Origin: Vulcanimicrobiota bacterium
Lineage (GTDB): Bacteria; Vulcanimicrobiota; Vulcanimicrobiia; Vulcanimicrobiales; Vulcanimicrobiaceae
DNA: 64,000 bases
Direction of reading: 5' to 3'
Assembly: GCA_003161435.1 (NCBI GenBank)
Contig: PMOS01000012.1
Coordinates: 62,001 to 126,000, forward strand
Both the position numbers and the translations under genes were made by a program. Below are positions 7,988-59,012 of the stretch, in pieces; the first letter of the stretch is position 1; each line of letters starts with the position of its first letter. The notes beneath the pieces were generated by a model. The model was not told where the DNA came from, did not search any database, and saw only the letters and a program-made list of their open reading frames with translations.

Positions 7988-8712
7988 TTGCAGCCGACGC
8001 TCAGTTTCGGCTGACGGCGAATGCGGCCGCGGCCGCCTTTGCAAGCTCGCCGCCCTATATCGCCTACAAGACCGACGTCGTCATCGACGTTCCGTCGATG
8101 CACCAGCACAAGGTCGTGTCGCGGGCCGTCGAGTCGCGCACCAAGGACGACTACGCGGTGCTGCAAGATTTACCCAGCGGCCAGCGGCAGTACGCGCACA
8201 GCTTCCCGCTGATCCCGACGTTCGACGCGCTGTCCTACTTCCGGGTGACCTTCAACGGGAACCGGCGCGATCTCCTGAGCTACGTCGAGCCGGGCGATCC
8301 GCTCACGTTCAAGGATCCGCGCGAAACCTCGCACGCGGATGTCGTCATCGTCTCCTTACGGTTCTATCACGCGTCCTACGCCGCCGACACGACGGACGCC
8401 GTCGCGCACATCGAGATGGATGCGCTGCCGACCCTCACGCAGGGGAACCGCTCTGATTTCTACATTCACGACGTATACGTCGATACGGCGACCAATCTGC
8501 CGACTCGCGTCGTCTACATCGGGCCGACCACGACGTTTACGTGCGACTACGAAGTCGTGCAGACGCACTGGCTCGTTCGCCACGTAACGTACGTCCACAC
8601 GTTCTACGGGCCGTTGCGCATCGGGCGCGTCACGGCGACGGCTGACGCGACCAATGGGGACTTCGCGTTCCCGGCGGCACCGAGCGATCCAAAGCTCGTC
8701 AGCGCACCGTAA
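7984..8712 (+). CDS. Hypothetical protein, probably exported
   Basis: From GTG 7984 the frame gives 242 residues of well-ordered, beta-rich sequence with many aromatic residues (YIAYKTDVVIDVPSMHQHKV, then FYIHDVYVDTATNLPTRVVY). The overall pattern recalls LolA-like or other periplasmic beta-sheet proteins, but I cannot assign a family. No signal peptide exists in this frame, yet a hydrophobic leader is encoded immediately upstream in the neighbouring frame, so export is suspected. The neighbours on the plus strand are unrelated to it. Confidence 0.6.
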   Translation: MIAADAQFRLTANAAAAAFASSPPYIAYKTDVVIDVPSMHQHKVVSRAVESRTKDDYAVLQDLPSGQRQYAHSFPLIPTFDALSYFRVTFNGNRRDLLSYVEPGDPLTFKDPRETSHADVVIVSLRFYHASYAADTTDAVAHIEMDALPTLTQGNRSDFYIHDVYVDTATNLPTRVVYIGPTTTFTCDYEVVQTHWLVRHVTYVHTFYGPLRIGRVTATADATNGDFAFPAAPSDPKLVSAP

Positions 8713-8828
8713 AGATTCGATCACCCGCCCCTTAGCGGCCGGTTGCCGTCCCCTCCTCGAGCCGCCCAATGCGCCCGGGGACCCTCTCGCGTTACCGCTC
8801 GGTTACGGCGCGTCCCTAGCATACGGCC

Positions 8829-10925
8829 ATGAGGAGCTCGCCGCCCATTCCGGAGCCGGAACCAGAAACCCCGGCCACGCGGGCGCCCGACCTCGCGCGC
8901 GCGAACGTCTTCAACCGCCTCTATATCGTGGCCATGTTCGCCGTCATCATTTCGATCGGCAGCTTCGGCATCGACGTGATTGCGCGCAGCCAAGAGACCG
9001 ACGCCCACGTCGCGCAGACGTTCCAGCATGCGAACGACGTCAGCGAGATGCGGACCGCGCTGGATCGAGAAGAATTCGAGCTCAACTCTGAGCTGCGCCG
9101 GCGGCAGGGCATCGAGTCGGATCGGCTCGTCCGGGCGACCGAGCTGTTCGACGACGCGAACCTCGAGGTCGACCGCGTCGGCTGGGCGGCAAACGAGCCG
9201 CTCTTGAAGCGGTTGGCCGCGCGCCAAGCGGCCTTCGTCGCGGACAGCCGCGAGATCGCCGGTGCCCTCGCCAACGGCGACTACGCGCGGGCGGCGCGCA
9301 TCGACGCAGAGAGCGCGAGTCCCAACGTCGACGCGATGCGGTATACGCTCGACGCAATATCGGCCGGTCTGTTCCGCGCCAGCGTCGCCGACGCGGCCGG
9401 TGCACGGCGGTTCATGTGGGACCTGCAGCACCTCATCGGCGCAGTCACCCTCCTGGGCATCGCGCTGATGGCGGGATTCGCGGTGCTCCTGGGCCGCTAC
9501 AAACGCGCCGCCGATACCTCGGCCGCAGCGACGCTGGCGGCACTCGAACAAGCGGCGCTGACCGACAGCCTGACCGGGCTCGGCAACAACCGCGCGTTCT
9601 ACGAAGATTTCGATCGCGAGATCGCCCGCGCCAAGCGGCACGATCATCCCATGGTGCTGGCATTGATCGACGTGGACGACTTCAAGTCGGTGAACGACAA
9701 GGACGGGCATTCGCACGGCGACGCCGTTTTGGCGCGCGTCGGAGAGCAGTTGCGCACCGCGCGCCAGGAGGATCGCGCGTATCGTATCGGCGGCGATGAG
9801 TTTGCGCTCATTCTGGTGGAAAGCGATCCCGAAGCCGCCGAGCTCGTGCTGGGACGCCTGCAAGCCGATATACGCGAGTCGGCGCTGGGCGCGACCGTGA
9901 GCATCGGCTACGTCAACCTTTGCGGCGACCAGGTCGACGCGGAGTCGTACGAACTCGCCGACACCGCGCTCTACGAAGCGAAGCGACTGGGCCGCAATCA
10001 GACCGTGTGCTTCCAGAACATCAGCGGCACGGTGAACGTCTTCTCGCCGCGCAAGGCCGACGCCGTTCGCACGATGATCGCCCAGGGACTCGTGAAAACC
10101 GCTTTCCAGCCGATCTGGGACATCCAGAGCGTCAATCCGCTGGGCTTCGAGGCCCTGGCACGCCCCGATCCGGCGCTCGGCTTGTCGGGCCCGCAAGAGG
10201 CGTTCGACGTCGCGCAACGCATGCGGCAGCTTCCCGAGCTCGACATGGTCTGCACGCGAAAGACCCTCGAAACCGCGGTGAACTTACCGCCCGGTTCGGT
10301 CATCTTCCTCAACTACTCCCCGGCCTCGATGATCCACGCCGGCTTCGATCCGCAAGCGTTTGTCGAAGCGGTGCGCGCGGCGGGTTTGCTTCCCGAGCAG
10401 ATCGTCATCGAGCTGACCGAGCGCCGCATCGATGATCCCGCGGCGGTCGCGCAGCGCGTCGCGGCACTCCGGGAGCTCGGCGTGCGGATGGCGCTCGACG
10501 ACACCGGAAGCGGCCACGCGGGGCTGGAGATCTTGAGCAAGGTCCGGTTCGACTTCGTCAAGATCGACCGCGGCCTCATCGTCGAGGCCATGCACAACCA
10601 GGAAGCGCGCGGGGTGTTGGCGGGGATCATCGCGATCGCGCGCGAGACGGGGAGCTACCTGATCGCCGAAGGCATCGAGACGGCGGAGATGTTGGATTTC
10701 GTCCGCAACGCGCACGTCTCCAACTTCGCGGGCGTACGCGGGATCCAAGGGTATCTGCTCGGGCGACCCGAGGTGGGCCGCGTCGATCTGCGCTCGCTCG
10801 ACCAGCATCGCGACTTTCTCACGGCCCGCCAAGCCGACGACCCACGTGTCGGCAGAATGCTCGCCGGGCGCAACGGGAGCAGGGGCGGCGGGTACGCCGA
10901 TCCGGGTCTCACCGCCGCACGCTGA
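8829..10925 (+). CDS. Membrane-anchored GGDEF-EAL protein
   Basis: 698 residues. TM helices at about 31-51 and 203-222 bracket a roughly 150-residue helical extracytoplasmic sensor. The GGDEF motif is intact at 321-325 with an inhibitory I-site (RQED, 312-315) at the canonical spacing. The EAL domain has EAL at 441-443, LNYSP, ELTER, LDDTGSG, VKIDR and EGIET, so the metal and catalytic residues are present. Its loop-6 motif is DDTGSG rather than DDFGTG. It should be able to make and/or degrade c-di-GMP. It is a close architectural relative of the protein at 46.9-48.8 kb. Confidence 0.93.
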   Translation: MRSSPPIPEPEPETPATRAPDLARANVFNRLYIVAMFAVIISIGSFGIDVIARSQETDAHVAQTFQHANDVSEMRTALDREEFELNSELRRRQGIESDRLVRATELFDDANLEVDRVGWAANEPLLKRLAARQAAFVADSREIAGALANGDYARAARIDAESASPNVDAMRYTLDAISAGLFRASVADAAGARRFMWDLQHLIGAVTLLGIALMAGFAVLLGRYKRAADTSAAATLAALEQAALTDSLTGLGNNRAFYEDFDREIARAKRHDHPMVLALIDVDDFKSVNDKDGHSHGDAVLARVGEQLRTARQEDRAYRIGGDEFALILVESDPEAAELVLGRLQADIRESALGATVSIGYVNLCGDQVDAESYELADTALYEAKRLGRNQTVCFQNISGTVNVFSPRKADAVRTMIAQGLVKTAFQPIWDIQSVNPLGFEALARPDPALGLSGPQEAFDVAQRMRQLPELDMVCTRKTLETAVNLPPGSVIFLNYSPASMIHAGFDPQAFVEAVRAAGLLPEQIVIELTERRIDDPAAVAQRVAALRELGVRMALDDTGSGHAGLEILSKVRFDFVKIDRGLIVEAMHNQEARGVLAGIIAIARETGSYLIAEGIETAEMLDFVRNAHVSNFAGVRGIQGYLLGRPEVGRVDLRSLDQHRDFLTARQADDPRVGRMLAGRNGSRGGGYADPGLTAAR

Positions 10926-10981
10926 TCCACCCCGAGATACGAACGAAGGAACGAACCGTCGGGCTCGCTCCTTCGCGTTCG

Positions 10982-11072
10982 TGGCGGAGAGGGAGAGATT
11001 CGAACTCTCGGAACGCTATTAACGTTCGCCCGCTTTCGAGGCGGGTGCCTTCAACCACTCGACCACCTCTCC
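10982..11072 (-). tRNA. tRNA-Ser(CGA)
   Basis: A 91-nt type II tRNA with acceptor GGAGAGG pairing with CCTCTCC, discriminator G and an encoded CCA. The anticodon loop CTCGAAA gives anticodon CGA, there is a long variable arm, and the T arm has GTTCGAATC. The 5' 22 nt overlap the 3' end of tadA. Confidence 0.95.
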
Positions 11073-11497
11073 GTGCGCCGCTTCTCCGCGAAGAACCCGC
11101 GGAGCTGTGCCGCAGTTTCTTCCGCGAGCACCCCGTCGACGACATCGACGCGATGGTTCACCGCGGCCGATCCGAGTATATCGATGACGGAACCGGCCGC
11201 CCCTCCCTTGGGGTCCCGGCAGCCGTAGATCAACCGCTCGATCCGTGCGCCCGCCAGCGCACCGGCGCACATCGCGCAGGGTTCTTTGGTGACGTAGAGC
11301 GATCCGCCGATTCGCCAACGGCCGAGCGCCTGCGCCGCGGCCCGGATGACGAGCATCTCGGCGTGCGCAGTCGGATCCGGCCGTGCCTCGCGCTCGTTGT
11401 ACGCCTCGAAGATTCGCCCGTCGACGACCAGAACGGCACCGATCGGAACGTCGCCGGCAGCGGCCGCTTGCCCGGCGAGCTCGATCGCGCGGCGCAT
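11051..11497 (-). CDS. tadA: tRNA-specific adenosine deaminase TadA
   Basis: TadA deaminates the wobble adenosine of tRNA-Arg(ACG) to inosine. Zinc ligands and catalytic residues are seen as His45 and Glu47 (AHAEM) and Cys74 and Cys77 (PCAMC). ATG 11497 (MRRAIELAG) gives 148 residues, a normal length; a longer frame would run through the upstream tRNA-Arg. The stop codon lies inside tRNA-Ser(CGA), so the last seven or so codons are also the 5' part of that tRNA. Its substrate tRNA-Arg(ACG) is encoded at 15.0 kb in this window. Confidence 0.93.
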   Translation of the reverse strand: MRRAIELAGQAAAAGDVPIGAVLVVDGRIFEAYNEREARPDPTAHAEMLVIRAAAQALGRWRIGGSLYVTKEPCAMCAGALAGARIERLIYGCRDPKGGAAGSVIDILGSAAVNHRVDVVDGVLAEETAAQLRGFFAEKRRTERWSSG

Positions 11498-11546
11498 CTG
11501 CAGCCTGTCCTCAGCCGCGGTCGAAAGGGCCTCCGAACAGGAAACG

Positions 11547-11620
11547 TGCTCCCGGCCCGGCTCGAACGGGCAACCTTCGCCTTCGGAGGGCGACACTCTA
11601 TCCAATTGAGCTACGGGAGC
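11547..11620 (-). tRNA. tRNA-Arg(CCG)
   Basis: Acceptor GCTCCCG pairs with CGGGAGC, with discriminator A and no encoded CCA. The anticodon stem TCGCC/GGCGA encloses loop CTCCGAA, giving anticodon CCG. It is 49 bases upstream of the tadA start on the same strand. Confidence 0.93.
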
Positions 11621-46866: not shown

Positions 46867-48810
46867 CTGGAACGCGCACATTTGATCAGCCAGATGGCGT
46901 ATGCCGGACTCGTGATCATTTTGGTTGGCCTGATGGGATTCGCGATCGCCGGCGCGTCCGTGGGGCAAGCGGCCGCGCGCAAGGTCGACGAGACGATCCA
47001 CCAGGTCCGCTTCCTGGTGGACGCGCAGCTGCGGGTAGCGACCGAGGAGTCGCTCGAGCGACTGTACCGGCTCGAGCCGAGCGCGGCGACGCGTGCGTTG
47101 CATCACCAGGCCGAGGTGCGCCTCGACGACGACCTTCGCCGAATAACGCCGTCGGCCGCGACCGCGGCTATCTTGGCCGCGGAGTCGCGCTACGATATTG
47201 GCGTCAAGCGGCTGTTCGCTGCGATCGATGCGCACGACCCTGCGACAGTTCTCTTCATCGACCAGCACGAGTCCGATCCAGCCTTCGCCGCGGTCGAACA
47301 CGGCATCGACGCTCAAGCGGCACTGGCACGCGGCCACGCCGACGCTTCTCTGCGCTCGTTGAAAAAAACCGAAGCAACGATCCTCGCGATGAATGCCTTG
47401 CTCTCGGTCATCGGCCTTTTGCTGCTCGTCGTCGTGCTCGGCGTTCTCCGCCACTACCGGCGGATGGTCAGCAACGCCTTGAAGGCCGAGCTGAATCGGT
47501 TCAAGCAGGCGTCGCTGACCGACTACCTCACCGGCTTGGGGAACCACCGTGCGTACCAGGAAGGCATCGCGCGCAGCGTCGACGAGTGCGCCGGCACGGG
47601 GTCGGTCGTGACGATCGCTCTGCTCGACGTCGACGAGCTCAAGGTGCTCAACGACCGCAACGGACACGTGACGGGCGATCGGCTCCTGGCCTCGCTGGCC
47701 CAGGTCCTGCGCGCGGCGGATCTCAGCTCGGTGCCCTACCGGTTGGGCGGCGACGAGTTCGCGCTGACCTTCGCCGGGATGTCGTCGCTGGTCGCCAAAG
47801 CGCGCATGGAACACGTTCGCACGGCCGTCGAGGCGCGCATGAACGGCATGACGGTCAGCGTCGGGATCTCGACGACGTCGCCGAAGGAGCCCGATCTGTT
47901 GGTCGTCCGCGAACAAGCCGATGCGGCGCTCTACGAAGCGAAGCGCCGCGGGCGCAACTGCGTCGTCACGTTCGACGAGATCCGCGACGAGCATCCGGTC
48001 TTCTTGCCCGCGCGCGTCGAAGAAGTTCGCGGCATCATCGCCAGTGGGGCGATCGGCGTCGCCTTTCAACCGATCTGGAGCATCGACCACTGCAGCGTGA
48101 TGGGATACGAGGCTTTGGCACGGCCGCTCGGCGACAACCCGATCAACCCCCAAGACGCGTTCGACATCGCCGAGCGCATCGGCAAGGCGCACGATCTGGA
48201 CCGGGTCTGCCGAACGGCCATTCTAGCCAAGGCCGAGACGGTGCCGCCTGATGCGCTCCTTTTCCTCAACGTCTCCCCGCAATCGCTCGACCACGCGGCC
48301 TTGGAGGGGACGACGCTCGTGCAGGCGGTTGAAGCTGCGGGGCTTACGCCCGGCCGGGTCGTCCTCGAGATCACGGAGCGGTCCATCGCCCGGATGGACG
48401 CGGTGATCCGCGAAGCGACGCGGCTGCGTTCGCTGGGATTTCTCTTGGCCCTCGACGACGCCGGTTCGGGGAACTCGGGCCTCGAGATGCTCAGCAAGCT
48501 CGCGGTCGACTTCGTGAAGATCGATCGCGACGTCATCGTTCGAGCGCAAGCCGGCGCGGGTGGCCGCGGCGTGCTCGCGGGGATCATCGCGATCGCGCAC
48601 GAGATGAACGCGCAGATCATCGCCGAGGGCATCGAGGATTCGGCGATGCTCGAGCTCGTCCGCGGCGCGACGCGTACCTCGCCGGTCGATTGCGGCGTGC
48701 AAGGCTACTATCTCGGCCGGCCGCAGGCCGACTTCGTCGGCGCCCGCGCGAGGGACGTCGCGGTCCAGCGCCTTGGGGGCACCCTCATCGCCGCTCACGC
48801 GCTGCGTTGA
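46867..48810 (+). CDS. Membrane-anchored GGDEF-EAL protein
   Basis: About 647 residues from CTG 46867 (or 642 from TTG 46882). TM1 is AGLVIILVGLMGFAIAGASV; a helical extracytoplasmic sensor of about 150 residues follows, then TM2 (LLSVIGLLLLVVVLGVL). GGDEF is intact at 294-298 but has no RxxD I-site at the usual spacing. EAL is at 415-417 with LNVSPQ, EITERS, LDDAGSG, VKIDRD and AEGIED. The loop-6 motif is DDAGSG, as in its relative at 8.8 kb. The stop overlaps the TTG start of the permease fusion (TTGA), so the two are one operon. Confidence 0.92.
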   Translation: MERAHLISQMAYAGLVIILVGLMGFAIAGASVGQAAARKVDETIHQVRFLVDAQLRVATEESLERLYRLEPSAATRALHHQAEVRLDDDLRRITPSAATAAILAAESRYDIGVKRLFAAIDAHDPATVLFIDQHESDPAFAAVEHGIDAQAALARGHADASLRSLKKTEATILAMNALLSVIGLLLLVVVLGVLRHYRRMVSNALKAELNRFKQASLTDYLTGLGNHRAYQEGIARSVDECAGTGSVVTIALLDVDELKVLNDRNGHVTGDRLLASLAQVLRAADLSSVPYRLGGDEFALTFAGMSSLVAKARMEHVRTAVEARMNGMTVSVGISTTSPKEPDLLVVREQADAALYEAKRRGRNCVVTFDEIRDEHPVFLPARVEEVRGIIASGAIGVAFQPIWSIDHCSVMGYEALARPLGDNPINPQDAFDIAERIGKAHDLDRVCRTAILAKAETVPPDALLFLNVSPQSLDHAALEGTTLVQAVEAAGLTPGRVVLEITERSIARMDAVIREATRLRSLGFLLALDDAGSGNSGLEMLSKLAVDFVKIDRDVIVRAQAGAGGRGVLAGIIAIAHEMNAQIIAEGIEDSAMLELVRGATRTSPVDCGVQGYYLGRPQADFVGARARDVAVQRLGGTLIAAHALR

Positions 48811-51794
48811 GCGCCCAGGCCCCGCATCGCCGAACGCTCGGTTGGATCGGGACGGCCGCCCTGGCGATGGGCGGCAGCAATCAAAGCTTATTTCTGGTCG
48901 GGGCGCTGTTTGTCGGCCAGGGCACGATCCACGGGCAAGGCAGCGCAGCCGTTCCGCTGCTCATCGCCGGCGTGATGCTCAGCTGGGCCGCGCTGCCCGG
49001 CTGGACCGAACTCGTGCTGCTGTCGCCGAATCGCGTCGGCGGCATCGCCGCGGCGTGCACCGAGGCGTTCCGCCCGTACAGCTCGCTGCTCTCCGCCTTG
49101 GTTGGCTGCTGCTACTGGTGGGGCTGGGTTCCGACTTGCGGCCTGACGGCGTTGCTCTCTGCGTCGGCGCTGCACTTCTGGCTGTTGCCGGCGATTCCGA
49201 TCACCTGGCTCGCCATCGCCATCATCGGCGTGTTCCTCGTCATCAACCTGTGCGGCGTCGAGTGGGCGGCGCGCGTCGCGATACCGATCGCGGCAGTTTC
49301 GGTGACTCTTTCTTTTCTGGCCGCGTTCGTACCGGTCGTGACGGGTCACGTCGACTGGCACCTGGCGACGACGTTTCACCTTACGACGCCGTTCGAGGGC
49401 TGGTTCGGCGGTTTCACCTCGCTGATGGCCGGACTTTATCTGGTCGGATTTGCGGCGCCCGCTTTCGAGGCCGCCGCGTGTCATGTCGGGGAGACGATCG
49501 ATCCGCGCCGGAACGTGCCACGCGCGATGTTCGCCGGCGCGGCGATGGCCGGCGTCTACTTCATCGTGCTGCCCGTCGTCTTGCTGGGCGTCATCGGCCC
49601 CGCGGCACTCGGCCGCGACCTCGCGACGGAGCTCGGCCCGACCTTTGCGCCGCTCTTCGGCTCGCTCGCCAAAGCGATGGCCGTCGGATTCATGGTCTTC
49701 AACATGTTTCACGGAACGCTGCAGCCTCTGGCCGGTGCCTCGCGAACGCTCTCGCAGCTGGCGGACGACGGCGTCTTTCCACGTTTCCTGGGGCTGCGTT
49801 GGAAGAACGACGTGCCGTGGGCGGCGACGATCGTCACCGCAGCGGCCGGAATCGGCTTCCTGTTGATCGGCGATCGGATTTGGCTGATCGCGGCGGCGAA
49901 CTTCACCTACTTGATCGCGATCTGCTTGCCGAGCGTCGCGGTGTGGCTGCTGCGCCGCGACGCGCCGGAGCGCGAGCGTCTGTATCGCGCACCGCGCGGC
50001 ACGATCGCACTCGGCCTCGGCGCGACGGTGTGCTGGGCGATCGCGGCGATCTTCGGCTTCGAGCAATTCGGCTTGGTGACGGTGATCCTCGGACTGCTGT
50101 TCGCGTATTCCGGCGCCGCGCTCTATGCCTGGCGAAAGCTCGAGGACCGCCAATCCGGCAGGGTGGCCGGCATCTTCAGGTCGCTCCAACTCCGATTGAC
50201 GCTGGCGATGGTCGTGATCTTGACTTGCGATGGCGCCGGTTATTTTCTCGCCATCCAAAGCGTCCCCGCCGGCGAGCTGTCCCGAGCGACGGCGCTGCAG
50301 GACATCTTCGTCCTGGTCGCGCTGTTGACGATCGGCGTCGGGCTCGTCCTGCCGGGCCTCATCGCGCACGCTGCGACGCGCGATTTGAAGAGCGCGAACG
50401 AACGTCTGCGACACGAAACCGAAGCGCTCGAACAGGAGATCGCCGAGCGCGCGCTCGTCGAGGAACGCCTCGTGCACGGCGCGTTCCACGACGCGCTCAC
50501 CGGGCTGGCGAACCGGGCGCTGTTCATGGATCGCTTCAAACAGATGATCGCGCGAGCGGAGCGCCGGCACGATCACCTCTCCGCCGTGCTGTTCCTGGAC
50601 TTGGATCGTTTCAAGCTCGTCAACGACAGCCTCGGACATCTCGTCGGCGATCAGTTGCTCGTCTGCGTCGCCGATCGTCTGAGGAAGTGTCTGCGGAAAT
50701 CCGACACCCTGGCGCGCTTGGGCGGCGACGAGTTCATCTTTCTGCTCGACGGCTTGAGCAGCAGGATCGATGCGAGCGCGTTCGCCGAACGGATCCTCGC
50801 TGCGCTCGCACCTGCGTTCCACATCCAAGACCACGAAATATTCGCCTCGGCGAGCATCGGCATCGCGATCACACGGACCGGCTTCGACGCGCCGGAGGAC
50901 GTCCTGCGAGACGCCGACATCGCGATGTACCGCGCGAAGTATCTCGGCAAAGCGCGCTACGTCGTTTTCGCCCCGGAGCTCTTGGAGCAGGCCGTCGGTT
51001 TGCTCCAGCTCGAAACCGACCTCAAGGGCGCGCTCGACAGGCACGAGTTCGTCGTCTTCTACCAACCGATCGTATCGCTGGCCGCGGGCGACCTGCTCGG
51101 TTTCGAGGCGCTGGTCCGATGGCAACATCCCAAGCGCGGGCTGCTGGCGCCGGGCCTGTTCATCCCAGCCGCTGAAGAAAGCGGCGCCATATTCGAGCTC
51201 GGCGCACAAGTGCTCGGCGAAGCGACGCGGCAAGGTCGCATCTGGCGGGATACTTTCGGCACGGCGCGACCGTTGACGATGAGCGTCAACGTTTCGGCGC
51301 GGCAGTTTTCCGACTCGCGGCTTGTCGCCGTCATCAGCAAGGCGCTAGCGGACTCGGGGTTGAGCGCCGACGATCTCTGCGTCGAGATCACCGAAAGCGC
51401 GATCATGGCGAACGCCGAAACCGCCGCCGCCACGTTGACCGAGCTTCGCGCGATGGGTGTCGACGTTCAGCTCGATGACTTCGGGACCGGATACTCATCC
51501 TTGGGGTATCTCCAGCGACTCCCGGTCGACACGCTCAAGATCGACCGCTCCTTCATCAGCGCCGCCGGCAGCGGGGTCGGCAACCCGGAGATCGTCCGCA
51601 CGGTCACGTCGCTCGCTCAGAGTTTGTCGATGAAGACGACCGCGGAAGGAATCGAAACGCTCGAACAGCTCGAGCAATTGCGATCGCTGGGCTGCACGAA
51701 CGGTCAGGGCTACTACTTCTCGCGGCCGGTGAACGCAGCCGACGCGCGCGGCTTGATCGCCGCCTGGCCGCAAGAGCAACGCCGCAGCGCCTAG
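48807..51794 (+). CDS. Amino-acid permease (APC family) fused to GGDEF and EAL domains
   Basis: 995 residues from TTG 48807. Residues 1-440 form a 12-helix APC-superfamily permease: TM1 with the unwound-helix type motif AMGGSNQSLF, and the conserved cytoplasmic loop AAPAFEAAACHVGETIDPRR followed by NVPRAMFAG. Two more TM helices (about 470-530) and a short coiled coil lead to GGDEF (639-643, with I-site RKSD at 630-633) and EAL (767-769) with SVNVSARQFS, EITESA, LDDFGTGYSS, LKIDRSF and AEGIETL. All c-di-GMP catalytic residues are intact. It looks like a transporter used as a sensor (transceptor) for c-di-GMP turnover. Confidence 0.9.
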   Translation: MSAQAPHRRTLGWIGTAALAMGGSNQSLFLVGALFVGQGTIHGQGSAAVPLLIAGVMLSWAALPGWTELVLLSPNRVGGIAAACTEAFRPYSSLLSALVGCCYWWGWVPTCGLTALLSASALHFWLLPAIPITWLAIAIIGVFLVINLCGVEWAARVAIPIAAVSVTLSFLAAFVPVVTGHVDWHLATTFHLTTPFEGWFGGFTSLMAGLYLVGFAAPAFEAAACHVGETIDPRRNVPRAMFAGAAMAGVYFIVLPVVLLGVIGPAALGRDLATELGPTFAPLFGSLAKAMAVGFMVFNMFHGTLQPLAGASRTLSQLADDGVFPRFLGLRWKNDVPWAATIVTAAAGIGFLLIGDRIWLIAAANFTYLIAICLPSVAVWLLRRDAPERERLYRAPRGTIALGLGATVCWAIAAIFGFEQFGLVTVILGLLFAYSGAALYAWRKLEDRQSGRVAGIFRSLQLRLTLAMVVILTCDGAGYFLAIQSVPAGELSRATALQDIFVLVALLTIGVGLVLPGLIAHAATRDLKSANERLRHETEALEQEIAERALVEERLVHGAFHDALTGLANRALFMDRFKQMIARAERRHDHLSAVLFLDLDRFKLVNDSLGHLVGDQLLVCVADRLRKCLRKSDTLARLGGDEFIFLLDGLSSRIDASAFAERILAALAPAFHIQDHEIFASASIGIAITRTGFDAPEDVLRDADIAMYRAKYLGKARYVVFAPELLEQAVGLLQLETDLKGALDRHEFVVFYQPIVSLAAGDLLGFEALVRWQHPKRGLLAPGLFIPAAEESGAIFELGAQVLGEATRQGRIWRDTFGTARPLTMSVNVSARQFSDSRLVAVISKALADSGLSADDLCVEITESAIMANAETAAATLTELRAMGVDVQLDDFGTGYSSLGYLQRLPVDTLKIDRSFISAAGSGVGNPEIVRTVTSLAQSLSMKTTAEGIETLEQLEQLRSLGCTNGQGYYFSRPVNAADARGLIAAWPQEQRRSA

Positions 51795-51800
51795 TTGGAT

Positions 51801-54080
51801 CTAGCTGTTCGCGGCCGAGCTCGGTCGAGCGGGCTTCGGCGCCCGGTTCGCCGCCGTGCCGGGGATCCGGCGCCGTTCCGGGCCGCTCGCGATGACGCGT
51901 TCGCTCGACGGGTTCGCGACATCGCGGAGTGCGACTGAAAACGCGAGCGGGACGCGGCTCGCCACCAGCGCGCCCGCAGCCGAGGCCGACAGCGGGCGCG
52001 CAAACAGGAAACCTTGCGCGTACTCGCACGAAAGCTCCTGAAGCGCCCTGAGCTCTTCGACCGCTTCAACGCCTTCGGCGACGACGGTCAACCGCAGGTT
52101 GTGGGCCAGCGACACGATGGCGCGCACCATCTCGCCCCGCTCCTTGTTCGCCTGCATCCCGGAGATGAACGAACGGTCGATCTTGACCGCGCTCACCGGC
52201 AGCATGCGCAGGTAACTCAGCGACGAGTATCCCGTTCCGAAATCGTCGATGTGAATATCGACCTGCAGCGCACGCAGTTCGGCCAGGACCGAGGCCACGG
52301 TTTCCGAGCGTTCCATCATCGTGCTCTCGGTGATCTCGAGGTTGAGCGAGCTGGCCGCGACGTGCGATTCGGCCAAGCTGCGCTGCACGCGCTGGCAGAG
52401 GTCGTTGTGGCTGAACTGCTTGGCCGACAAGTTGACGCTCATCGTCAGCGGGACCGCGTCGAGCGCGTCGGCTTGCCACGCGCGCAGCTGCGCGCAGGCA
52501 GTCCGCAGCACCCATTGGTCGATCGGCACGATCAAACCGGTCTGTTCCGCGGTCTGAATGAACTCCGCGGGCTGCAAGATGCCGCGCGTTGGATGCTTCC
52601 AGCGCACGAGCGCTTCGAAACCGACCAAGCGCAGATCGCCGAGTGCGACGATCGGCTGGTATTCGAGAAACAGCTCGTCGCGTTCAACGGCGTGTCGGAG
52701 ATCGCTTTCGACCGCGTGGCGAGAGACGACGCTGGCGCGCATCCGGTCGTCGAAGATGACCGTATTTGCACGACCAAGGGCCTTCGCTTCGTACATTGCG
52801 ATGTCGGCGTCGCGCAGGATGTCTTCGGAACGGTCGTACGCATCCGTGCCGAGCGCAACGCCGATGCTGGTGGTCGCCCGCGCTTCGTGCATCTCGACGT
52901 GGATCGGCGGCTCCATCGCGGCGTGGATGCGGTCGGTCAGGCCGATGATCTCTTTCGTCGACGCGATGGAACTGACCAACACGGTGAACTCGTCGCCGCC
53001 GATCCGCGCGACGACGTCCTCGGGCCGTACGCACGCTCGCAAGCGCTGGCCGATTTGGGTGAGCAGCTGATCGGCGAGGACGTGTCCGAGTCCGTCGTTG
53101 ATCGTCTTGAACTGGTCCAGGTCGAGGAAGAGCACGGCGAACCTCGAGCCGGCGTGCCGTTTCGTATGCGCGATCGTCCGCTGCAGGTGCTCCACGAACA
53201 GCGCCCGATTCGGCAAGCCGGTCAGCTCGTCGTAGAACGCCTGTTTGCGCATCGTCTTCTCGTTCGCCCGCGACTCCGTGACGTCGTGGGCGGTCACTGA
53301 GAAACCCTGCGCAGCGCCGAGTGAACCTGCCTTGAGCAGCGTGATGCGGCGGCGGGCGATGAAGCGGCTTCCGTCGCCGCGCAGCTGCCAGCGCTCGTTC
53401 TCGACCTGTCCGAGTTCGGCGGCCCGCCGCAGCTCGACTTCGGGGAGGCCGCGAGCGGTGTCGCCGGCGGTGAAGAGCTTCGAGAACGGCGCGCCGATGA
53501 TCTCCGCGTGCCGGTACCGGAAGATCTGCTCGGCGCCGGAGTTCCACAGCGTGATCAAACCGTCGGGTCCGATCGAGAACATCGCGTAGTGGTCCACGCT
53601 CTCGACCAGCAACCGAAAACGCTCCTCGCTCTGGCGCAGCGCGATCGCCGCCTCGTAACGCTCGGTGCTGTCGCGCACGATCTTGGTGAAGCCGTGGCGG
53701 CGCCCTTCGCCGTCGATCAGCGGTTGCACCGTGTTGGTGCCCCAGAAGCGCGTACCGTCCTTGCGCATGTGCCAGCAATCCCGATCGAGACGTCCGCGCT
53801 CGATCGCGATGCGCATCTCAGCGTCGGGAATACCCGCGGCTCGGTCCTCGGCCGTGAAGATGAGCCCGAAGTCGGCGCCGATGACCTCGCTGCGAGAGTA
53901 TCCGAACGCGTGCTCCGCACCGGGATTCCACGTCGCGATCCGGCCCTCCGACGTCGTCGTGAAGATGGCGAATTCGGTCACGCTGTCGCAGACGAAGCGC
54001 GAGAGCGCCTCGGCTTCGTCTCGAGAGGCTCGGGATGCAGTCGAAACCGCGATGCGGCGGCCTTTACGGTCGGACGTCAC
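51801..54080 (-). CDS. PAS-PAS-GGDEF-EAL protein
   Basis: About 759 residues from GTG 54080 (an in-frame ATG exists at 54152). There are no membrane helices. PAS1 is at about 30-145 (FVCDSVTEFAIFTTTSEGRI, then WNPGAEHAFGYSRSEVIG) and PAS2 at about 150-270 (WNSGAEQIFRYRHAEIIGAP). GGDEF is at 361-365 with I-site RPED just before, and EAL at 489-491 with SVNLSAKQFS, EITESTM, IDDFGTGYSS, VKIDRSF and AEGVEA. It is a soluble c-di-GMP enzyme with all motifs. It lies 99 bases downstream of kaiB on the same strand and could be its output. Confidence 0.93.
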   Translation of the reverse strand: MTSDRKGRRIAVSTASRASRDEAEALSRFVCDSVTEFAIFTTTSEGRIATWNPGAEHAFGYSRSEVIGADFGLIFTAEDRAAGIPDAEMRIAIERGRLDRDCWHMRKDGTRFWGTNTVQPLIDGEGRRHGFTKIVRDSTERYEAAIALRQSEERFRLLVESVDHYAMFSIGPDGLITLWNSGAEQIFRYRHAEIIGAPFSKLFTAGDTARGLPEVELRRAAELGQVENERWQLRGDGSRFIARRRITLLKAGSLGAAQGFSVTAHDVTESRANEKTMRKQAFYDELTGLPNRALFVEHLQRTIAHTKRHAGSRFAVLFLDLDQFKTINDGLGHVLADQLLTQIGQRLRACVRPEDVVARIGGDEFTVLVSSIASTKEIIGLTDRIHAAMEPPIHVEMHEARATTSIGVALGTDAYDRSEDILRDADIAMYEAKALGRANTVIFDDRMRASVVSRHAVESDLRHAVERDELFLEYQPIVALGDLRLVGFEALVRWKHPTRGILQPAEFIQTAEQTGLIVPIDQWVLRTACAQLRAWQADALDAVPLTMSVNLSAKQFSHNDLCQRVQRSLAESHVAASSLNLEITESTMMERSETVASVLAELRALQVDIHIDDFGTGYSSLSYLRMLPVSAVKIDRSFISGMQANKERGEMVRAIVSLAHNLRLTVVAEGVEAVEELRALQELSCEYAQGFLFARPLSASAAGALVASRVPLAFSVALRDVANPSSERVIASGPERRRIPGTAANRAPKPARPSSAANS

Positions 54081-54179
54081 GGTTCCAAATCGACGGCGCG
54101 CACGACCTAACACTACCCCACGCCTGCGCCGTGCCGCGTCCCAAAACTGCACACTTTGCGACGCTTGTGAGGCGCGCCG

Positions 54180-54473
54180 CTAGCGTGGAAGCGTTTGCAG
54201 AAAGTAGTGGAGCTGACTTGCCTCGCTCAAGTCGCCGATCAGCCGGCGCGCGCACGACGGCGCCACCAGCGTGGGCGTGACGAGCACCCGGCTGTTCAGC
54301 GCCCGTTCCGGAAACTCGAACACGTTGACGATCTCGAACGCGAAGTAACCGGTTTCGAACCTCTCAAGGGCAAGCTGCAGGTTGCCCTGCGCGCTTATGG
54401 AGCTCGGGTTGTCGCCTGCGACGAATAAGTAGAGCGGTAAGCCCGGCGTGCCGCCCGGTGTGGCATCCGTCAT
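54180..54473 (-). CDS. kaiB: Circadian-clock-type protein KaiB
   Basis: 97 residues of thioredoxin-like KaiB: LYLFVAGDNPSSISAQGNLQ, FEIVNVFEFPERALNSRVLV, TPTLVAPSCARRLIGDLSE. The strand LYxFVAG, the cis-Pro TPTL and the RRxIGDLS block are diagnostic. In cyanobacteria KaiB binds the CI ring of KaiC after a fold switch. It overlaps the kaiC stop by ATGA. Confidence 0.93.
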   Translation of the reverse strand: MTDATPGGTPGLPLYLFVAGDNPSSISAQGNLQLALERFETGYFAFEIVNVFEFPERALNSRVLVTPTLVAPSCARRLIGDLSEASQLHYFLQTLPR

Positions 54474-56182
54474 CGCTCCAACTCCGCCACCCCGCTGAGA
54501 ATGTCGGCCGGGTCGCCGAATCGCGACAGCCGGACGGCCGCCGCGTCGGCGCTCCTGACGTTGCTGCGCACCGCGGTGCGCTTCACGAGGGCGGCGCGGT
54601 GATCGTCGATTTGGGCGAGCCGGCGCCGGAACTCGGCGACGTTCTGGCTCAAGGTCGCGCGCTCTTCGTCGAGCGTTCGCAACTCGACCCTACGCTGTTC
54701 TTCGTCCTGTTCGCTCTCGATGAGCATTTCTTGCTCGCGGCGCAAGCGCGCGGTGCCGAGCAAGACGTTTCCGCCGCTGGAGTACACGTCGGCCAGCGCC
54801 ACGCCTTCGTTGCTCAAGAACACCTCGCGCATCTGATTCGAATGTGCCGTGCCGCGCGCCTTGACGACGGTCAGCGTGCGGTTCCGCTCGCCGTGCTGCG
54901 CCGCGTAGCTCAGGTGAATCCAGGTGTCGGCGACGGCCGAAACCCGCATCACCGTGCTCTCGATCTCACCCTCGCGCGACTCGGAAACTGCGGTGAAGAT
55001 CGCGGTGATGCTGCGCGCCTTGAACAACACGACGAGCCGTTCGGTGACGACCTCGGCCATGTCCAGGCCGCCCGACTTGATCAGGGCGGAAACCGGATCG
55101 ATGACGACGCGCGTCGGGCGATGCGCGTCGATGAGCGCTTCGATCGCCAGGGAGTGTTCGTCGCCGATGGCGGCCCCGGCAGCGAACGACTCGGCGCACA
55201 GCAGTCCCGAGTCTTTGAAGGACTGGAGCTCGATGCCGAGCGACCGTGCGTCGTAGATCATCTGCTCGGCCGGCTCGTCGAAACCGACGAACAACACCCG
55301 CTCGCCGGCCTCACAGCCGGCCCAAAGAAACTTTGCGCCGAACGTCGTCTTCGACGTTCCCGGCAGTCCTGAGATCAGCGTCGTGGTCCCCATGCGATAA
55401 CCGCCCTCGAGCATGCGGTCCAACCGCTCGACGCCCGTCGAAAGGCGCGTCTCCAGAGTCTTCGTCTGGCCGATCCGGGTGCGAATCGGCAGGCTCAGCA
55501 CCTTGAGGCCGTCGGTCGAGATCGTGTACGGATGGTCGCCGGCGAGAAAGCTCGCGCCGCGCAGCTTCACGACGCGCAAGGTCCGGCGGAGCAGCTCCCC
55601 CACCATCGTCGAGCGCAGCTGTAAAACGCCGTCGGCGGCAAAGTCGGTGAACCCGAAGCGCTCGGGGACTCCGGAGACGCCGTCGTCTGACTTCATCGTG
55701 AGCAAGGCCGTGACGCCTGACTCCTGAAGCCAGCTCAACACGCGCAAAATCTCGCGGCGCCGGTTCGCATCGTTGCGGCCCAGGGAGAACACCGCATCGA
55801 GGCCGTCGAGCGCGAGCCGCTTGATACCGAGCCTGACCACGAGCGAAGAGACGACCGCGATGAGCCCGCCCAGATCGAACGTCCCGCTCTCGATCGCGTC
55901 CTCCGGCAGGCGGCCGTCCACGATGTGAACGCTCTTTCCGACGACGTCGTCGAGCGATAGCGACATCCCGCGAAAGTTGACCTGCAGCGCGCTCGGCGAC
56001 TCTTCGAAGGAGATCATCAGCCCGGGTTCGCCGTGCTCCGTCGCACCGGCGACGAGATACTGCAACGCCAGGACCGTCTTGCCGCTGCCGGGGGCGCCGG
56101 CTACGACCGTCGTGCGGCCCGCCGGAAACCCGCCGCACAGCACCGCATCCAGGCCCGATACGCCGGTTGCGCTCTTCAACAT
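54470..56182 (-). CDS. kaiC: KaiC-family ATPase/kinase, double RecA domain
   Basis: 570 residues. CI domain: Walker A GAPGSGKT (29-36), catalytic Glu60-Glu61, Walker B Asp126. CII domain: Walker A GLPGTSKT (272-279) and Asp302-Glu303 where KaiC has Glu-Glu. Aligning VSAVADT (414-420) with the KaiC autophosphorylation stretch keeps Ser415 (S431) but puts Ala416 in place of T432; Thr410 matches T426. The C-terminus (480-570) is a charged coiled coil rather than a KaiA-binding tail, and no kaiA is present. It starts 37 bases past an upstream GGDEF-EAL gene. Confidence 0.93.
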   Translation of the reverse strand: MLKSATGVSGLDAVLCGGFPAGRTTVVAGAPGSGKTVLALQYLVAGATEHGEPGLMISFEESPSALQVNFRGMSLSLDDVVGKSVHIVDGRLPEDAIESGTFDLGGLIAVVSSLVVRLGIKRLALDGLDAVFSLGRNDANRRREILRVLSWLQESGVTALLTMKSDDGVSGVPERFGFTDFAADGVLQLRSTMVGELLRRTLRVVKLRGASFLAGDHPYTISTDGLKVLSLPIRTRIGQTKTLETRLSTGVERLDRMLEGGYRMGTTTLISGLPGTSKTTFGAKFLWAGCEAGERVLFVGFDEPAEQMIYDARSLGIELQSFKDSGLLCAESFAAGAAIGDEHSLAIEALIDAHRPTRVVIDPVSALIKSGGLDMAEVVTERLVVLFKARSITAIFTAVSESREGEIESTVMRVSAVADTWIHLSYAAQHGERNRTLTVVKARGTAHSNQMREVFLSNEGVALADVYSSGGNVLLGTARLRREQEMLIESEQDEEQRRVELRTLDEERATLSQNVAEFRRRLAQIDDHRAALVKRTAVRSNVRSADAAAVRLSRFGDPADILSGVAELER

Positions 56183-56219: not shown

Positions 56220-59012
56220 TCATACGACGATCGCTTGATCGTGAAGTGAGATGAGCAGGTCGAAGAATTCGATCGGGCGCGAGACGAGGAAACCTTGGCC
56301 GGATCTGCAGCCGTGACTCAACAGCCAGCCCGCCTGTTGCTCCGTCTCGATCCCTTCGGCTAGCGTCGCCAAACCGAAACGCTCGGCCATGCGCAGCAAC
56401 ATCTCGCACAGCGCCGCGTCTTTCTCGTCCCCCGGTAAGCCGTCGACGAACGACTTGTCGATCTTGATCAGATCGACCGACAGGCGCTTGAGGTACGACA
56501 GCGACGAGTAGCCCGTGCCGAAATCGTCGATTGCCACACGCAAGCCCCAACTCCGGAACAGGGTCAAGGTGTGCATCGACCGCTCGACGTTTTGCATCGC
56601 GGCCGTCTCCGTAAGTTCCATCCCCAGCTTCGTCGACAACCCCGGGTTCGCGCGCAGCGTCTGCCGTATCGTTTCGATGAACGAAAAATCGCTGAGCAGC
56701 TGCGGCGCGATGTTGAAATAGCAGATGAAGTCCGCGGGGAGATCTGCGCTCTGAATGTCCCGGACGACTCGCTCGAACACCCAGCGTGAGAGCGGGCTCA
56801 TCAAGCCGCTGCGCTCGGCAAACGGGATGAACTCCGACGGCGGCAATCGGCCCCGCGTCGGATGGTCCCATCGAACCAGCGCTTCAGCGCCGACGATGGT
56901 ACGGGTCGCCAAGTCGAACGTCGGCTGATACACCAGTGCGAGTTGATCGGCGGCGATCGCCGCGGATAGGTCGATGGAGCGGACCAGCCGCTCCGCGAGA
57001 ATCGCCTCCATCGGCGCATCGAACAACATCAGGCTCGCCGGTCCGTGCGACTTGGCGACGTCGAGCGCGACGGCCGCCCGGCGCATGAGATCGTCGGCGC
57101 TCACCCCACCGCCGTACGACGGAGCCACCCCGAACGTCGCGGTCACGTCGAACGCGCGCGTACCGTCGCGATCGGCGGTGTGAAACGGCGTGCGAAATCG
57201 CTGCATGTACCGATCGAGTGCCGCGGTGACGGACCCCTCGTTGCCGGTCTGCCGCAGCAGGATACCGAACTCGTCGCCGCTTAGGCGCGCGACGAGGTCG
57301 CGGTCGTCGACGCCGCTCAGCGTCGCGGCGATCGCGACCAGCACCTCGTCCCCAATCTCGTGACCTTCGACTTCGTTGAGCTGCCGGAAATCGTCGATAT
57401 CGGCGATGGCGACGGCAAACGGCGTACCGCGCGCGGCTTCGAGACGGAGCGCGTCGCGGAATTGAAGCCGCGTTTCCAAACCGGTGAGCGCGTCGTGGCT
57501 GTTCTGAAAGTGCAGGCGCTCCACTTGTTCCTGCTGCGCGAAACGGTTGGAAAGGAACGAGGCGACCAGATCGACGTAGGCCACGTCGTCCTCACCGTAG
57601 GGTTCGTCCGTCATCCGTTCGGGCGAAGCGAACAGGACGAAGTGGGTGTTGAGGCCGATCTGTAGCGGCGCTCCGATCAGGCTGTACCATCCGATGCCGA
57701 CCGCGATGCCGTACTCAGAGCGCGGCTCTTCGGCCAAATCGTCCCACGCCTGCGTGCGGCCGGTGGCGAGCAGCAGGCTCTGCATCGTGTTCTCGATCGG
57801 AAACGTCGCTCCGGGATACACCCGCCCCGTCGCCTCGCTCGGCCCCACCCAAGAGGTCGCGTCGACCACGATCGTCGTTTGTTCCAAATGGCTGAGCAAA
57901 CCGAAGATCGGCCTGTTACCGCGAATCGCGGCGGTCGCGATCCGGAGAATTTCCTGATAGCGTGAGCGGTCGTCGGAGATCGTGTCGGTAGCTGCGATGC
58001 GCCACAGCGCTTGGATACGATCGGCACGTTTCATCGACTCGCTCTCGGCACGGGTGAGAGCGATCTCGGTTTCACCGAGCTTCTTCGTCGTGCCGGCAAG
58101 AGCGCGCGTCGCCGACGCCAGGACGAACGTCGTGGCGGCAAGCTGCAGGAAGCGCGCGACGTAGAACGCGGCGGTGTATCGCTGCGGGAACAGCAGGTAG
58201 AGCGTGATCTCGGCGGTCTGGACGATCAGCGCCAGCGTCAAGGCGCGGTCGACCTCGATCGGCTTCGCGATGCGCGTCGTGGCGACGGCCGCGGAGCCGC
58301 ACAGGATGAGCAGCGCGAAACCGGCGCCGGTCGTCCGCAAGCCCCCTAATGTCGTACCGACGGCGAGCTGCGGAAGGAAGTCGACCAGCCACAACGCCAG
58401 TGCCAAGCCCACGGCGACAACGACGCACATCACCACGACCGCACGTCCAGCGAAGGCCGTCGTCACGCGTTGCTCGGCACGCCGACCAGTCCGCAGCGAA
58501 ACGTAGGCGAGTGCACCGGCCCCGGCGACGGCGTGCCAGAAGACGTAGAGCCAGATCCCGGCCTGGGCGCTTCTCGCCCAGATCGGCGGCGTGTCCGGTA
58601 GCAACGGGAGCACCAGCATCGCGAACAGCGTGAAGATGCCGACGGCCCCGAACGTCAGCCCAAGGACGAAGCTCGAACGCCGCGGCGCCGCCGCGTTCGC
58701 GCCGACGAACAGAACTGCAGCGGTCGCGAGGTTAGCCAAGACCGCCACGAAATACGCCGCGGGGACCAGCGACGAAAGCGCGGCATGCGGTAGGTTTGCG
58801 AACGCTATGCCGGCGAGCGCGACACCATAGAGCGCGACGAGCGCGGCCCAGCTCGCGAACCCCGGGATGTTCCAAGCGGGATACGCGGCCGAACCGCTAT
58901 TCCGAGAGGAATCGCCTCGAACGACTCGACGCAGCGCGGTACGAGAGCGTCGAAAAATATCTTCGACACGGAAGAGAGCCAACTGATCCCCATCGGACCC
59001 GCGTCCACCCAC
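56220..59012 (-). CDS. Membrane sensor-GAF-GGDEF-EAL protein
   Basis: About 930 residues from GTG 59012 (start uncertain). Seven to eight TM helices cover about 50-300 in a MASE-like arrangement, then a coiled coil, a GAF-like domain (about 330-500: RGNRPIFGLLSHLEQTTIVV, then GIGWYSLIGAPLQIG), a degenerate GGDEF (SGDEF at 578-582, no I-site: DDRD) and an EAL domain (710-712) with FNIAPQ, ELTETA, IDDFGTGYSS, IKIDKSF and AEGIETE. The EAL part looks active, so a phosphodiesterase with regulatory SGDEF is likely. It is upstream of kaiC and co-directional. Confidence 0.9.
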   Translation of the reverse strand: MGGRGSDGDQLALFRVEDIFRRSRTALRRVVRGDSSRNSGSAAYPAWNIPGFASWAALVALYGVALAGIAFANLPHAALSSLVPAAYFVAVLANLATAAVLFVGANAAAPRRSSFVLGLTFGAVGIFTLFAMLVLPLLPDTPPIWARSAQAGIWLYVFWHAVAGAGALAYVSLRTGRRAEQRVTTAFAGRAVVVMCVVVAVGLALALWLVDFLPQLAVGTTLGGLRTTGAGFALLILCGSAAVATTRIAKPIEVDRALTLALIVQTAEITLYLLFPQRYTAAFYVARFLQLAATTFVLASATRALAGTTKKLGETEIALTRAESESMKRADRIQALWRIAATDTISDDRSRYQEILRIATAAIRGNRPIFGLLSHLEQTTIVVDATSWVGPSEATGRVYPGATFPIENTMQSLLLATGRTQAWDDLAEEPRSEYGIAVGIGWYSLIGAPLQIGLNTHFVLFASPERMTDEPYGEDDVAYVDLVASFLSNRFAQQEQVERLHFQNSHDALTGLETRLQFRDALRLEAARGTPFAVAIADIDDFRQLNEVEGHEIGDEVLVAIAATLSGVDDRDLVARLSGDEFGILLRQTGNEGSVTAALDRYMQRFRTPFHTADRDGTRAFDVTATFGVAPSYGGGVSADDLMRRAAVALDVAKSHGPASLMLFDAPMEAILAERLVRSIDLSAAIAADQLALVYQPTFDLATRTIVGAEALVRWDHPTRGRLPPSEFIPFAERSGLMSPLSRWVFERVVRDIQSADLPADFICYFNIAPQLLSDFSFIETIRQTLRANPGLSTKLGMELTETAAMQNVERSMHTLTLFRSWGLRVAIDDFGTGYSSLSYLKRLSVDLIKIDKSFVDGLPGDEKDAALCEMLLRMAERFGLATLAEGIETEQQAGWLLSHGCRSGQGFLVSRPIEFFDLLISLHDQAIVV

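Follow-up and report, generated by a model that had tools for sequence, protein, structure and literature searches.

The window, as we call the whole DNA stretch of 64,000 nucleotides analyzed here (contig PMOS01000012.1, positions 62,001 to 126,000, from a Vulcanimicrobiota genome of 3.83 Mb that is 83% complete), contains a gene in which a permease of the APC superfamily is joined to the GGDEF and EAL domains of cyclic di-GMP (c-di-GMP) metabolism. The single uninterrupted frame that an earlier note on this DNA had claimed is borne out, with no internal stop along its 995 residues; its features are the following (TM, transmembrane helix).

48807..51794, + strand: whole fusion gene, 995 residues, TTG start, open frame without stop
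48837..50054, + strand: APC permease domain AA_permease_2 (PF13520), residues 11-416, Pfam 2.9e-36, covering positions 1-403 of the 427 of the profile
48870..48887, + strand: TM1 signature GGSNQS, residues 22-27, from the alignment of modules and standalone relatives
50184..50366, + strand: two extra membrane helices, TM13-TM14, residues 460-520, with invariant D475, Y479 and D499
50367..50480, + strand: helical linker from TM14 to GGDEF, lacking HAMP, from domain scan and structure prediction
50481..50951, + strand: GGDEF domain, residues 559-715, Pfam 6.7e-47
51018..51728, + strand: EAL domain, residues 738-974, Pfam 1.7e-68

The match to PF13520 is full-length, as expected from the APC assignment given earlier, and is accompanied by further profile matches to y+LAT2, GkApcT and BasC; both motifs quoted before, GGSNQS in TM1 and FEAAACHVGETIDPRR, are present, and, counting from the TTG start at 48807, the conserved region at the start (HPRTIGW) sets in at residue 7-9. 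The number of helices, given as about 12, has to be raised to about 14, since two more conserved helices, TM13 (approximately residues 460-484) and TM14 (approximately 491-520), follow the 12 of the permease. In the cytoplasmic part, the catalytic motifs are all kept, including the I-site RKSD (residue 630, 50694-50705), the GGDEF motif (residue 639, 50721-50735) and the complete catalytic set of the EAL domain (E767, N828, E860, D890/D891, K911, E947 and Q967); from this inspection of motifs, both domains appear to be intact, in agreement with what had been proposed. The EAL part can be aligned to the solved GGDEF-EAL proteins 5m3c and 4rnh.

The same fusion is present in two other metagenome-assembled genomes (MAGs) of the same family but of other genera, L050 (G118, PLAE01000122) and L051 (G090, JANYGA010000240), one of which is recorded as Candidatus Eremiobacterota; MAG names are given as recorded, and the record of L009/L051 is labelled Rhodospirillales, its genome-search grouping being with the family of the window. 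Identity to the window protein is 74% (L050) and 68% (L051) for the membrane module, 61% and 59%, respectively, for GGDEF-EAL. A stop or frameshift between residues 440 and 560, which the earlier note had named as fatal to its claim, is contradicted by both relatives, in which the same junction is read through. Because these two Eremiobacterota MAGs hold the fusion in one frame, it is not an accident of assembly. Frame breaks do occur in the MAG contigs of L050, where the break lies inside EAL and the remainder of the domain continues in another frame, and of L057, where it lies inside the module, as one would expect if two genes had been joined by sequencing or assembly error, or if the fusion were in decay; against this, L051 is intact, intact fusions are found in independent genomes from three phyla, the junction is shared and the catalytic motifs are kept, so that an artefact, already refuted for the window by its independent orthologues, retains only a negligible probability. 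The broken L057 copy (8660-11552) is of the kinase type and comes from an actinobacterial MAG.

The permease plus its two extra helices, hereafter the module, was used to build the profile A1, the sole profile with which copies were collected. Intact members score 765-966 bits with A1, ordinary permeases of the same genomes 55 bits at most, and given this sharp separation the module constitutes a discrete family. In all, 23 copies were detected, distributed over 22 genomes or records of at least three phyla: three in Eremiobacterota, 13 in Actinomycetota (including Solirubrobacterales and Acidimicrobiaceae) and, within Pseudomonadota, five in Burkholderiales (including Robbsia andropogonis and a Paraburkholderia megaplasmid) and two in an order of alphaproteobacterial MAGs. 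Across phyla, module identity to the window copy is 56-74%. Hence, the architecture is not the one-off that it had seemed. In the five orders searched, which were picked because each contains a member, the module occurs in 4/399, 7/232, 2/96, 2/248 and 3/129 genomes; phylum samples of 359 and 356 genomes gave nothing beyond the seed genome itself. Viral contigs and phage records contained no relative, and a plasmid search returned one true member, that of the Paraburkholderia megaplasmid, the other matches being ordinary permeases at 24-26% identity. No standalone module was encountered across approximately 1,970 genome searches; all 23 copies continue into relay or output domains in the cytoplasm.

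These output domains are of different kinds. Ten copies end in GGDEF-EAL, in some cases with GAF (window, L050, L051, L039, L042, L043, L044, L046, L048, L052), 11 in a histidine kinase, several of which also have REC, HPt, PAS or GAF (L014, L017, L040, L041, L045, L047, L049, L053, L054, L056, L057), one in GGDEF-HD-GYP (L055), and one is unassignable (the contig of L012 ends after HAMP). A HAMP domain follows TM14 in 18 copies according to Pfam, whereas the three Eremiobacterota proteins have a short linker without HAMP, which where counted spans 46-49 residues between TM14 and GGDEF. A tree of the module unites the three Eremiobacterota fusions in one clade (100/100) adjoining a kinase version (87/82), and over the whole tree the output class must have changed five times or more, a pattern characteristic of an input module with exchanged outputs. 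In the GGDEF-EAL tree, the outputs of Eremiobacterota, Actinomycetota and Burkholderiales fall apart; one-clade tests on these parts gave only marginal values (p 0.024 and 0.047), the background being small and one branch long, and we take the result as a hint that the GGDEF-EAL parts may have independent origins across the groups. Identity to the window is higher for the module than for the attached enzyme, 64% versus 34.5% in L039 and 60% versus 45% in L044, and this stronger conservation fits one shared ligand.

Obligate fusion to signalling outputs, together with the HAMP relay that most copies carry, argues strongly that the module behaves as an input, that is, as a sensor. A control running in the opposite direction, in which binding of c-di-GMP to the GGDEF I-site or to EAL would gate a functional transporter, could draw on the intact I-site and EAL pocket; yet kinases and HD-GYP also occur as outputs of the same module, and the usual direction of signalling through HAMP is from membrane to output, which leaves this alternative very improbable.

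Which carriers lie closest to the module bears on what it may sense. Its best named family is that of trimethylamine-N-oxide permeases (NF053774), with scores of 116, 120.5 and 128.3 bits against 66 at most for other named APC families; the module does not reach the curated cut-off of 690, whereas L060 (787) and L058 (829) pass it. These permeases can be aligned with the module across the 12 core helices, but they are standalone carriers and their TM1, TM6 and TM3 motifs are unlike those of the module. In the alignment, TM1 reads GGSNQSLF in the module versus GVPPLVLF, GSPAFVLF and GSALLVTV in standalone carriers; no more than one of the 22 modules deviates at any position of GGSNQS, and the signature is absent from the standalone relatives aligned, which also lack a counterpart of TM13. 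The TM3 sequence YWWGWVPTCG and the TM6 sequence GFAAPAFEAAACHVGE are likewise the module's own. Invariant in the permease core of the 22 modules are N25, Y103, W104, W107, E221, C225, H226, E229, R313, N365 and Y368, to which D475, Y479 and D499 add in the extra helices (22/22), and information content is highest in TM6, TM10, TM1 and TM3. In the LeuT fold, the substrate site is lined by TM1, 3, 6 and 8. The fold and the nearest family thus point, faintly, to a small amine-like solute as ligand; the amino acid or polyamine suggested previously lacks specific support, the nearest named family being the trimethylamine-N-oxide permeases, and these are distant. One permease gene of that type, L060 (382-2853), lies beside an aminomethyltransferase gene on the Paracoccus aminophilus plasmid pAMI6.

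The conservation profile also touches upon another possibility, namely that the module senses a physical or bulk signal, such as the proton gradient or the state of the membrane, with the intramembrane D475 as switch. D475 and D499 are indeed invariant in all 22 modules, but conservation peaks in the APC core (TM1/3/6/10) and not in TM13-14, and we consider such a signal unlikely.

Transporter-like inputs fused to signalling enzymes are known, and the analogy with CbrA-type fusions drawn in the earlier note is well founded. CbrA and MxtR(CrbS) similarly combine an N-terminal transporter domain of LeuT fold (13 helices) with a C-terminal signalling output and are candidate nutrient sensors; however, their transporter domain is of the SLC5 (SSS) type and is followed by STAC, neither of which has a Pfam match in the window protein or its relatives, and in the cited literature their output is a kinase only, no c-di-GMP version having been found. 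In the ammonium sensor kinase Ks-Amt5, a transporter fold has also become a sensor, fused directly to its output with no intervening HAMP, which the window protein lacks too; but the fold is the trimeric Amt and the output a histidine kinase. Judged by its domains, the module appears to resemble both kinds of sensor but belongs to neither, as it has no SLC5, STAC or Amt domain. The polytopic inputs MASE, MHYT and 5TMR of GGDEF proteins are combined with GGDEF-EAL and kinases too, but have far fewer helices, do not adopt the APC fold and have profiles that the window protein does not match. Yeast Gap1 is an amino-acid permease that also signals; unlike the window protein, it acts via separate proteins of the protein kinase A pathway and not through a covalently fused enzyme (PMC3166329). 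In the open-access literature we found no account of an APC permease joined to GGDEF-EAL or to a bacterial kinase, and hence no described APC-GGDEF-EAL protein; subscription papers lay outside the scope of the search. The module is probably a nutrient sensor of a rare type that has so far not been described.

Does the module still transport? A true transceptor, in which the output is governed by the transport cycle of the solute, a mechanism proposed for CbrA with histidine, would be compatible with the full-length APC fold and its 12 retained core helices, and CbrA is reported to import histidine while signalling (PMC7096432, PMC13022988). Conversely, the TM1 signature is unlike that of carriers of the nearest families, the genes around the copies are mostly signalling or unrelated housekeeping genes rather than catabolic operons, and the comparable fusion Ks-Amt5 has experimentally been shown to have lost transport (PMC5764959). 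The transceptor is therefore not supported as stated earlier, and we regard continued transport as rather doubtful; more doubtful still is its boldest version, a new transceptor class in which the transport cycle of a small-amine APC carrier would drive c-di-GMP, with the module capturing GGDEF-EAL, HD-GYP or kinase outputs across phyla.

The reading that we prefer is that of an APC-derived membrane receptor which would set c-di-GMP turnover upon binding a small, probably amine-type, solute, and we give it a probability of about two in three. According to this proposal, the 14-helix N-terminal module would be a membrane sensor derived from an APC transporter, having a pocket among TM1, TM3, TM6 and TM8 in which a small solute, most likely of amine type, would bind; binding would shift the module between alternating-access states and thereby displace TM13-TM14, and a continuous helix from TM14 would then alter the packing of the GGDEF-EAL dimer and, with it, the balance between synthesis and breakdown of c-di-GMP. 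A route of the signal from TM13-14 to a dimeric enzyme seems plausible, as do dimerization through TM13-14 plus the linker and the membrane-to-enzyme direction of control. In the predicted structure of the full protein, TM14 extends as a long helix as far as the GGDEF domain.

Several points weigh against the receptor so conceived. Its response to a solute is a prediction, and the gene contexts inspected offer no clear clue to a substrate. AlphaFold2 models of the full protein and of the module, built upon only 10 sequences, have a pLDDT (predicted local distance difference test) of approximately 35-38 in the membrane part, too low for docking a ligand or assessing the pocket; the module model retrieves AdiC, BasC and SLC7A10 with Foldseek (E about 1e-7, TM-score about 0.5-0.6) and places breaks at residues 25 (TM1) and 215 (TM6), where this fold would have them, although given the low confidence this does no more than agree with the sequence result. 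The module is rare and patchily distributed, occurring in 3/149 genomes of the window's phylum, and a profile search detected it in none of the 10 genomes listed for the window's genus. More distant standalone relatives could have escaped a search based upon a single profile.

The input signals of most c-di-GMP enzymes are unknown, and a solute-binding transporter fold that sits on three kinds of output offers a tractable route to a direct link from nutrient to c-di-GMP, besides allowing one to ask how a transporter turns into a receptor. Such questions need not be confined to uncultured bacteria, since kinase versions lie next to a REC-EAL gene in the cultured species Robbsia andropogonis and in a Paraburkholderia isolate. 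In both organisms the module gene is flanked by GAF-HK-REC (HK, histidine kinase) and REC-EAL genes, and given this REC-EAL neighbour the kinase versions, too, may end in c-di-GMP. The three genes, with the APC-module hybrid kinase in the middle, have an operon-like arrangement in L017 (4157-11537, Paraburkholderia megaplasmid) and L053 (8643-15218, Robbsia). In L047, an ordinary amino-acid permease lies two genes away from the module gene.

The window's genome has 26 GGDEF matches, and the fusion gene is surrounded by other genes of this kind:

46882..48810, + strand: upstream membrane GGDEF-EAL gene (Pfam, sequence)
51801-54152, - strand: PAS-PAS-GGDEF-EAL gene, facing the fusion gene
54180-56182, - strand: kaiB (97 residues) and two-domain kaiC (570 residues), a pair between two GGDEF-EAL genes
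56220-59012, - strand: MASE4-GGDEF-EAL gene of the same cluster

The stop codon TGA of the upstream gene and the start codon TTG of the fusion gene overlap in the sequence TTGA, which suggests that the two genes are translationally coupled. The EAL domain of the upstream protein has DDAGSG where DDFGTG is usual, and phosphodiesterase activity may accordingly be weakened or changed. In the GGDEF-EAL tree, the catalytic parts of the window protein group with those of the neighbouring PAS-PAS-GGDEF-EAL protein (91/93), from which the captured output may have been derived locally. The kaiBC pair, finally, forms with the c-di-GMP genes a cluster that lies outside cyanobacteria.
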